Origin: Hellea sp.
GTDB taxonomy: Bacteria; Pseudomonadota; Alphaproteobacteria; Caulobacterales; Maricaulaceae
DNA: 64,000 nt
Direction: 5' to 3'
NCBI GenBank assembly: GCA_020627655.1
Contig: JAHDGM010000006.1
Span: 1-64,000 of the forward strand
Position 1 is the stretch's first letter. Every line of letters starts with the position of its first letter. The position numbers and the translations under genes are program-made. The notes beneath the pieces are model-generated. The model was not told the origin of the DNA. It did not search any database and was given only the letters and a program-made list of their open reading frames with translations. Positions 60,257 to 63,127 of this stretch are shown here, one piece after another.

Positions 60257-60846
60257 GACACAATGGCTCCTCTTTCACGCAAATAATCCAAAACCGGCAA
60301 TAAGGATAATCCCAATATAGAGAAGAAGTCTCCCTCAACTTTGGTAAATAATTGTGAGCCTCTTCCCTCAAACCGATATGCCCCCACACTTTTTAAAACT
60401 GCTTCTCCCTCTGCTTTTAAATATTGATCGAGAAAATGTTCACTGAATTCACGAACGGATAATATGGTTTTAGAAATATGGCGCCAAACAGGCATTCCAT
60501 TTTCACAAATAACAACAGCCCCGATCAAACGATGATCTTTTCCGCGCATGTTAAGTAATCGTCCGCGGGCTTCAGTCATGTCTTTGGGTTTATCAAATAA
60601 TATTCCGTCCATCTCCATGATTTGATCAGCGCCAATAACCAAGCCTTGTTCTTGTAGACTAACTTTTCGTGCTTTTGCTTCAGCTAACGCGTCTGCAATA
60701 TCCCGGATTTTAGCCCCCTCAGCTAAGAGGCTTTGTTTTATGGCGCTTTCATTGACCGGCTTGACAATAACTTCAAAATCCAACCCCGCCTCAGTTAATA
60801 TTGTTTTCCGGATTGCGCTGCCGGATGCCAGTATAATTCGGGTCAT
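60253..60846 (-). CDS. maf: Maf-family nucleotide pyrophosphatase
   Basis: 197 residues. Hydrolyses non-canonical or modified nucleoside triphosphates. IILASGSAIRKTILTEAG, the GADQIMEMDG site and the MRGKDHRLIGAV segment are conserved. Part of the operon PPRP-maf-aroE-coaE-dnaQ. Confidence 0.93.
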   Translation of the reverse strand: MTRIILASGSAIRKTILTEAGLDFEVIVKPVNESAIKQSLLAEGAKIRDIADALAEAKARKVSLQEQGLVIGADQIMEMDGILFDKPKDMTEARGRLLNMRGKDHRLIGAVVICENGMPVWRHISKTILSVREFSEHFLDQYLKAEGEAVLKSVGAYRFEGRGSQLFTKVEGDFFSILGLSLLPVLDYLRERGAIVS

Positions 60847-61694
60847 TATAAAAGTGTCCGGTTTCTGCGTTCTTTTTGATAAAGATTAATAATTTTTGCA
60901 GCCGTTTCTTCAATTGACCGGCGGGTCACGTCAACAATAGGATATCCTTTTTGAGTAAAGAGACGTTTGGATTGGCGCATTTCTTCTCTGACTTTATCTA
61001 TATCTGTATAATCAGTGGTCCGGTTTTCATTCAGCCCAACCAATCTCTGAGTTCTGATTTGTGATATACGATCAGGACTAGCCACGAGCCCAACGATAAA
61101 CGGATTCTCAAAAGTGTCTAAAATCACAGGCAATGGTGCTCCTGGCACAAGTGGAATATTGCCAGTTTTTAGACCTCTATTTGCCAAATAAATACTTGTC
61201 GGTGTTTTTGATGTTCTGCTGATTCCCAATAATACAATATCAGCCTTTCTAAGGCCCGGCACGTTTTGACCATCGTCATGTGCCATAGCATAATCGAGCG
61301 CCGCTATTCGGTCATAATATTCGCTGTCTAATGTTCGCTGGGCTCCAACTTCATGGCTTATAGAAGCTCCAAGATATCGACCCAGCATTGCCAGGCTGGG
61401 ATCTAGAATAGAAATTGCCGGAATATGATGATCTTCACAATATTCTTCAAGAAGTTTACGCCTGTCAGGGTTTGCCAGTGTATAAAGCACCACCCCAGGT
61501 TTGTTTTTTATATCTTCAAGGGTTCGCGCCATTTGCTCTTCCGTTCGCACTAAAGCATGCAAATGTTCAAGCGGCATAGCTGATTTAAACTGAGCGCAAC
61601 TTGCCTTCATCATGGCTACTAATGTTTCTCCAGTTGAATCTGAAACCAGGTGGACATGAAAATATATGGATATGTTTTTATTGCGTGTTTTCAC
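60846..61694 (-). CDS. Bifunctional kinase/pyrophosphorylase of PEP synthase/PPDK (PPRP)
   Basis: 282 residues with a GTG start. The DUF299 family: FHVHLVSDSTGETL at the start, and a P-loop VLLGISRTSKTPTSIYLANRG. It regulates pyruvate phosphate dikinase or PEP synthase by reversible phosphorylation. In Caulobacter this homologue lies beside the chromosomal origin, as here. First gene of the operon reading away from the proposed origin. Confidence 0.93.
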   Translation of the reverse strand: MKTRNKNISIYFHVHLVSDSTGETLVAMMKASCAQFKSAMPLEHLHALVRTEEQMARTLEDIKNKPGVVLYTLANPDRRKLLEEYCEDHHIPAISILDPSLAMLGRYLGASISHEVGAQRTLDSEYYDRIAALDYAMAHDDGQNVPGLRKADIVLLGISRTSKTPTSIYLANRGLKTGNIPLVPGAPLPVILDTFENPFIVGLVASPDRISQIRTQRLVGLNENRTTDYTDIDKVREEMRQSKRLFTQKGYPIVDVTRRSIEETAAKIINLYQKERRNRTLL

Positions 61695-62098
61695 ATTATA
61701 AATCTGAACTTATTTCTACTTACCCACAAGCTCTATTTTCAAAGCTTTTTATATGGGGATATTTTGAGTAAGTATTTGTCATTCAATGTTTTATGCACTT
61801 TGTCGATAAATATTCAGGAAACACGCTATAAGTGTTCATAAGTTTTATTCAATAATAATCCCAATATTTATCCATAGGTTAATCCTATGAAATAATAGAT
61901 TTTTTAAAAATTATTCATGTATTTTCAAAATATGAATTCATAAATTCACTTGAGGATAAAATTGTATAAATTCACAGTTTATTAAATATTCTTACCAAAA
62001 GGTTAAAATCATTCACACATCCACATCCTCTACAACTATTTCTTCCATAAAATATATTAGAGGGGGACAAGACGCCGGAATAAGACTAGGTATAATTC
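61695..62098. other. Probable chromosomal replication origin (oriC)
   Basis: A 404-base gap between the PPRP gene and hemE, the location of the Caulobacter origin. The core 61861-61980 is about 20% G+C by count. Near-consensus DnaA boxes (one mismatch to TTATNCACA or its C-form) are TTACCCACA (61720-61728), TTATGCACT (61791-61799), TGTCGATAA (61801-61809, reverse), TTATCCATA (61868-61876), TGAGGATAA (61951-61959, reverse) and TCATTCACA (62009-62017). TTAA half-sites of CtrA type occur, without a clear TTAA-N7-TTAA pair. No GANTC methylation site was seen in the gap. Confidence 0.75.
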
Positions 62099-63127
62099 GT
62101 GACCCAAAAGATTTTAAAAACCCTGCTCGGCGAAGAGATTAAACCTTATCCTATCTGGATGATGCGTCAGGCTGGACGTCATTTACCCGAATATCTAAAA
62201 ATTCGTGAAACAGCTAAAGATTTTATAGATTTTTGTTTTTCACCAGACAAAGCATCGGAAGTCACGTTACAGCCTGTTCGAAGATATGATATGGATGCAG
62301 CTATTCTCTTTGCTGATATCTTATTAGTCCCTATTGCCTTAGGTCGAGAGGTTCGTTTTGTTAAAGGGACTGGACCCGTTCTTGATCCTTTAAATGTTTC
62401 TGACATAGCAAAATTTAAAACTGATATGTCTGTGTTAGAGCCTGTTTATAAAACGGTTAGTCTTGTTCGCCAAAATCTTACAAAAGATAAAACCTTAATC
62501 GGATTTTGCGGAGGTCCTTGGACTGTTGCAACTTATATGATTGAAGGTAAAGGATCTCCAACAAAAGAAACGGCAAAAAGATTTGCTTATGAACACCCAA
62601 AAGCAATGGATGATCTTTTAATGAAACTTGCCGATAGTAGTGCTGAGTATCTCATAGAGCAATCCAAAGCTGGAGCGGATGTATTGAAGATATTTGAAAG
62701 TTGGGCTGAAAACCTGGCGCCGCCATTATTTGAAAAGTTGGTTATAAAACCAACTCAGCATATTGTTAAAAAAATCCGTAATGCAGCTATTGAAACACCT
62801 ATTATTGGTTTTCCCAGAGGAGCTGGGTTAAATGCCCTAACTTATGCGCAAAACATTAATGTTAGTGCGATCGCTGCGGGAACTGATGTTCCGCTAACAC
62901 AATTTAGAAATTTATTGCCGGAAAATATAACAATACAAGGAAATCTGGATCCGTTAGCTCTCCGAATTGGCGGGCAGACCCTTAGAAAAGCTGTTCAAAG
63001 TGTTCTTGATTCAATTAAGGGACCCCATATTTTTAATTTAGGTCATGGAGTTGCTCCGGATGTAAAAATTAAAAATGTTGAAGCAGTGATAAGTCATATT
63101 AGAACTGGAGATGGAAATTATGTATGA
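62099..63127 (+). CDS. hemE: Uroporphyrinogen decarboxylase
   Basis: 342 residues, GTG start. Removes four carboxyl groups from uroporphyrinogen III in haem synthesis. PIWMMRQAGRHLPEYL near the N-terminus, DAAILFADILLVPIALG, GFCGGPWTVATYMIEG and GNLDPLAL are conserved. AT-rich codon use compared with the rest of the window. Overlaps hemJ by eight bases. Confidence 0.97.
   Translation: MTQKILKTLLGEEIKPYPIWMMRQAGRHLPEYLKIRETAKDFIDFCFSPDKASEVTLQPVRRYDMDAAILFADILLVPIALGREVRFVKGTGPVLDPLNVSDIAKFKTDMSVLEPVYKTVSLVRQNLTKDKTLIGFCGGPWTVATYMIEGKGSPTKETAKRFAYEHPKAMDDLLMKLADSSAEYLIEQSKAGADVLKIFESWAENLAPPLFEKLVIKPTQHIVKKIRNAAIETPIIGFPRGAGLNALTYAQNINVSAIAAGTDVPLTQFRNLLPENITIQGNLDPLALRIGGQTLRKAVQSVLDSIKGPHIFNLGHGVAPDVKIKNVEAVISHIRTGDGNYV

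Follow-up and report, generated by a model that had tools for sequence, protein, structure and literature searches.

The proven chromosome origin of Caulobacter crescentus (Cori) sits between hemE and the PPRP gene (COG1806), as reported in PMC1914354. Two Cori G-boxes, altered at position 2 of the DnaA box, adjoin or overlap CtrA sites (PMC4468827, PMC4285127), and a CtrA ChIP-seq peak adjoins the origin of Hyphomonas neptunium (PMC7200025). Rickettsia prowazekii and Wolbachia carry a hemE-flanked, AT-rich spacer of ~400 bp, the opposite flank of which is COG1806 in Rickettsia and COG1253 in Wolbachia. In Bacillus subtilis, the BUS combines DnaA boxes 6/7 with DnaA-trios in the order tandem boxes, 4-bp gap, bottom-strand trios of the GAT type with a phased middle A, and AT-rich DNA.

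The locus presented here lies in a 64-kb window (the whole stretch of DNA that was analysed, positions 1-64000). A spacer of 404 bp (61695..62098; 27% G+C; delimited by composition and skew flip, no strand assigned) separates PPRP/ppsR, the pyruvate phosphate dikinase / PEP synthase regulator of COG1806 (60846..61694, minus strand; NF003742, E 9.3e-94), on the left from hemE (62099..63127, plus strand; TIGR01464, E 4.9e-113) on the right. The first-pass annotation had proposed a chromosome origin at the Caulobacter position, and these profile matches bear out both flanks. It had also put the core at about 20% G+C, in agreement with the 17-20% that we measured in 100-bp windows (0.17-0.20) across 61825..61999; the spacer as a whole is the most AT-rich 404 bp anywhere in the window. 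No phage match was found for the spacer, and the IHF consensus WATCAN5WTR has 0 matches on its two strands, a feature that origin function does not require. Among named organisms the nearest hemE loci are those of Hellea MAGs, including Hellea balneolensis, a cultivated species, and Hellea is a member of the family Robiginitomaculaceae. The PPRP partner was recovered by tblastn at all loci, and the divergent pair with a spacer of 390-620 bp is present at every relative locus of resolved orientation, while loci stored in the opposite orientation contribute the gene pair but no spacer length.

We conclude, at a probability of about 0.93, that the spacer is the single chromosome origin of an alphaproteobacterium related to Hellea, of the Cori type and homologous in position to Cori. 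This call is supported by synteny, skew flips, parS proximity, DnaA boxes and a conserved box/trio module, and it settles the origin of the Hellea genus as far as sequence allows. As such, it is an ordinary, well-supported origin of an already known type. Cori and the present locus have in common the hemE and COG1806/PPRP flanks, weak DnaA boxes, the skew flip, and a box altered at position 2 nearest the CtrA element. They differ in that the core box has C at position 2 where the Cori G-boxes have G, in the 27% G+C of the Hellea spacer with no GANTC and no IHF consensus found, and in that Cori contains five CtrA sites whereas exact TTAA-N7-TTAA is absent here. The likeness to Rickettsia and Wolbachia lies in the size, AT-richness and flanks of the spacer, but these are obligate intracellular bacteria with other CtrA-site sets. 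Hyphomonas neptunium is a related budding alphaproteobacterium in which CtrA binding next to the origin was shown, as opposed to predicted in Hellea.

When searched with TTWTNCACA and one mismatch, the spacer yields 7 DnaA boxes against 1.6 expected from shuffles of the spacer itself (p 0.002), and it is the place of highest box density in the window; an eighth one-mismatch box at 61687 overlaps the PPRP start. The box cluster noted previously is confirmed, although the count should be seven and not six. The box TTACCCACA at 61720..61728 (plus strand) is conserved in the genus as TTACCCACA or TTGTCCACA in the alignment of relatives. Consensus search further placed boxes with 1 mismatch at 61791..61799 (TTATGCACT, plus), 61801..61809 (TTATCGACA, minus), 61833..61841 (TTATGAACA, minus) and 61951..61959 (TTATCCTCA, minus). 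At 61868..61882 (plus) the box TTATCCATA overlaps a loose CtrA site, TTATCCATAGGTTAA, the CtrA part of which is not conserved in relatives. Nearest hemE are two tandem core boxes on the plus strand, TCATTCACA at 62009..62017 (TCATCCACA in relatives), which departs from the consensus at position 2 (T to C), and ACATCCACA at 62017..62025, within a conserved block. Conserved boxes in relatives had been proposed as a check on the origin, and both the genus-wide 61720 box and the tandem core pair, found in 31 of 31 family loci, agree with it.

Immediately before the core boxes lies an element, common to the origin and ccrM, that we consider deserving of a bench test. Three one-mismatch TTAA-N7-TTAA sites occur in the spacer (61868, 61971 and 61992), a count that is not in excess (3 versus 1.85 expected, p 0.29). 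Since the count was not significant, we relied on conservation and genome-wide rarity instead. The site at 61992 (TTAC-N7-TTAA) is part of a CtrA-like composite, TTAA-ATATTC-TTAC-CAAAAGG-TTAA (61982..62006, plus strand), which ends 2 bp from core box 1 and is distinguished by its conserved block, by a position test and by rarity. In the position test, 20 of 31 family loci have a one-mismatch TTAA-N7-TTAA within the 38 bp that precede the core boxes. Shuffling the entire spacer gave a mean of 1.8 (maximum 6) and shuffling this segment by itself a mean of 3.7 (maximum 11), and spacer segments further upstream reach at most 3 of 31. For rarity, a 25-bp pattern, TTAA-N6-YTAMCAAADGGTTAA, was written from the origin and ccrM copies of the genome itself. 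With 2 mismatches allowed it has 3 matches there, all with 0 mismatches: one at the origin, one upstream of ccrM, and one, 12 kb from the origin, in the interval that separates a DUF3576 lipoprotein gene from an outer-membrane-like gene; the first two are not independent of the pattern, which was derived from them. The reversed control pattern gave 2 weak matches under the same conditions. Across 31 genomes and with one mismatch, 20 matches were obtained in 11 genomes (7 at the origin, 6 at ccrM, 6 at the DUF3576 locus and 1 elsewhere), and the reversed pattern gave 0; the relatives in these counts are not fully independent.

The identity of the binding protein should be interpreted with some caution, because the central half-site is TTAC rather than TTAA, so that the composite matches neither the strict CtrA consensus nor the TTWW rule given in PMC1914354. 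It could be hypothesized that the origin is real but that some other regulator occupies the composite, or that the composite belongs to the DnaA assembly itself, with no gating by CtrA. The departure at the central half-site would fit such a role, as would the composite being far rarer than canonical CtrA sites and confined to three loci. Moreover, at most other alphaproteobacterial origins CtrA sites have not been seen, and CtrA use at the origins of marine relatives probably arose independently, as stated in a review (PMC4468827). Against this, the TTAA halves and their 11-bp register (N7) are those of CtrA, and perfect TTAA-N7-TTAA sites are found at or near the composite position in relatives, at about the same place in two loci (L049 and L061) and one to two turns upstream in a third (L036). 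The composite also lies upstream of ccrM, and ccrM is a CtrA target in Caulobacter. On balance we regard a binder other than CtrA as unlikely, and gating of the origin by CtrA through the composite as probable, judging from these sequence features. The first-pass annotation had reported no clear full CtrA site, which holds for exact TTAA-N7-TTAA but misses the conserved one-mismatch composite that adjoins the core boxes.

The composite is part of a hemE-proximal block (61980-62045) with column identities of 0.71-0.94 in an alignment of 13 relatives, in which most of the remaining spacer is poorly conserved. The block consists, in order, of the composite, 2 bp, box TCATTCACA, box ACATCCACA, 4 bp, an array of DnaA-trios, and AT-rich DNA. 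The array occupies 62030..62044 on the bottom strand as 3'-GAT GTT GAT AAA GAA-5' (top strand CTACAACTATTTCTT, that is CTA CAA CTA TTT CTT), and it is one of two scan matches in 64 kb. By the definition of a BUS that we used (tandem DnaA boxes, a gap of at most 16 bp, and at least 3 trios with a middle adenine), the window contains a candidate, its trios being 12 bp from box 1 and 4 bp from box 2; the former distance fits the published peak at 10-13 bp (PMC8287927). The resemblance to B. subtilis includes the 4-bp gap after tandem boxes and the GAT-type bottom-strand trios with phased middle A followed by AT-rich DNA, but the Hellea boxes are weaker and overlap by 1 bp, the trios are degenerate, and a CtrA-like site abuts the first box.

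Two lines of evidence suggest that this array is the unwinding module of the origin. First, tandem boxes, the 4-bp gap and trios are retained in 31 of 31 family loci. Secondly, when trios 2-6 are tallied, T is the middle base in 95 of 155 cases, as compared to 34 and 62 in the other phases; since hand-made patterns at the first trios served to choose the anchor, this statistic is clean for the later trios only. The trios of the window itself are degenerate, with 2 of 5 perfect and a middle A in 4 of 5 (trio 2 is without), and are clearer in relatives, such as the locus with CTA CTA CTA TCA CTA CTT (L049). Such imperfection would fit an alternative in which the trio-like conservation is coincidental, or belongs to a promoter of hemE, and DnaA instead opens the core at 61825-61999, which at 17-20% G+C is the most AT-rich part. 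Yet conservation is low in the core (mostly 0.45-0.7 per column) and highest in the block of CtrA-like site, boxes and trios, and trio phasing is kept across the 31 loci. Opening at the core accordingly appears improbable to us, and a role of the trio array as the unwinding module quite likely, slightly more so than gating by CtrA.

Under the favored reading of the trios and the composite, DnaA-ATP would bind the dispersed weak boxes as well as the two tandem core boxes (62009-62025) and then extend along the bottom-strand trios (62030-62044), melting the AT-rich DNA beside hemE, where the stretch at 62047..62060 would be the probable first-melted segment. CtrA~P would bind the half-sites TTAA/TTAC/TTAA of the composite (61982-62006), which is separated from core box 1 by 2 bp, and could in this way exclude DnaA outside the replicative phase. 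The copy upstream of ccrM would bring expression of the methyltransferase under the same regulator. Taken together, a CtrA composite that is Robiginitomaculaceae-wide and fixed against the trio module, with the 25-bp element common to the ccrM promoter and one outer-membrane locus in the Hellea genus, is a tentative proposal to which we give somewhat less than even odds. If true, a single regulator would use one DNA word to gate the methyltransferase as well as the mechanistic core of origin opening, in an arrangement more compact than the five dispersed Cori sites. The proposal offers a testable picture of a response regulator blocking a DnaA unwinding module, and bears on whether marine relatives of Caulobacter inherited the control of their origins by CtrA or acquired it independently.

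GC skew had been named as a check on the origin call, and the results favor it: the flip falls at PPRP/hemE on the contig of the window and in three complete relatives. As the 2.59-Mb genome is split over 89 contigs, its own skew covers the window's contig only (C82, 79,912 bp), where it is mostly negative over ~60 kb and positive from ~62 kb onward. For each complete relative, 20 spaced stretches served to estimate the global skew. The sign changes at PPRP/hemE at 3.151 Mb in G010, near 2.298 Mb in G032 and near 3.257 Mb in G034. The opposite flip falls near 1.5 Mb of 3.45 Mb, at 0.86-0.98 Mb of 2.69 Mb and at 1.46-1.62 Mb of 3.37 Mb, respectively, so that the two flips are separated by about half a chromosome. 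In G010 and G032 the skew agrees with this position but is not sharp by itself, because over several hundred kb flanking the origin, on one side or on both, it is weak or mixed. The distance from the spacer to perfect parS sites is ~17-19 kb in G010, 8-10 kb in G032 and 10-12 kb in G034. That the spacer is a divergent promoter region only, its blocks serving hemE/PPRP transcription with the origin elsewhere, would agree with its position between two divergent genes and with some conservation adjoining hemE, but is very improbable given the skew flips in four genomes, the parS proximity, the box excess, the DnaA-trio module and the fact that these two genes also flank the proven origin of Caulobacter.

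Within the window the sole parS match has 3 mismatches, which is chance-level; the parS copies of the genome are on contig C67 and not on the origin contig, and the usual mnmG-rsmG-parAB run was not seen after trmE on C82. For these two reasons the origin-proximal gene order seems rearranged. The parS copies on C67 (95300-95361, L208) are two in number and 46 bp apart.

At the other loci of the composite, the copy beside ccrM (C71:40868-40892, L148) is perfect and is adjoined by a DnaA-box-like TATCCACA. The copy between the DUF3576 lipoprotein and outer-membrane-like genes (C82:74065-74089, L150) is likewise perfect. The gene next to the lipoprotein (C82 74121-75968; L002:10121-11968), an adjacency that is conserved, encodes an outer-membrane-like protein of 615 aa that has no Pfam match and whose N-terminal part is rich in proline, glutamine and serine.

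The absence of GANTC from the spacer, noted in the first-pass annotation, was confirmed, but it is at chance level (0.7-0.9 expected, P(0) about 0.4-0.5) and is not conserved, as counts in the spacers of relatives vary from 0 to 10. We therefore rejected it as a sign of altered control; nor are GANTC sites among the features that define a Cori-type origin. The annotation had read the lack of GANTC and CtrA sites as different cell-cycle control, a suggestion of lost CtrA/CcrM control that our results correct: CtrA, CcrM, GcrA and DnaA are all encoded in the genome (CtrA as a 111-aa C-terminal fragment at a contig end, 204 bits, best NCBIfam model CtrA; CcrM at 604 bits), with CtrA, CcrM and GcrA, but not DnaA, below curated cut-offs, the CtrA gene being cut by the contig end; and the CtrA-like composite is conserved and lies upstream of ccrM as well. 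Given the encoded regulators, the conserved composite and a CtrA-type palindrome upstream of ftsZ, control of the cell cycle by CtrA and CcrM is likely retained. The palindrome, GTTAAGAGGTACTTAAC, is canonical and perfect and lies ~60 bp upstream of the ftsZ frame (C58:2317-2333, L220); genome-wide, GTTAA-N7-TTAAC shows no excess over the reversed control, although one of its matches is this site. Across the window (1-64000) GANTC is strongly depleted, with 115 occurrences versus 214 expected from shuffles, which would fit a CcrM-methylated genome.
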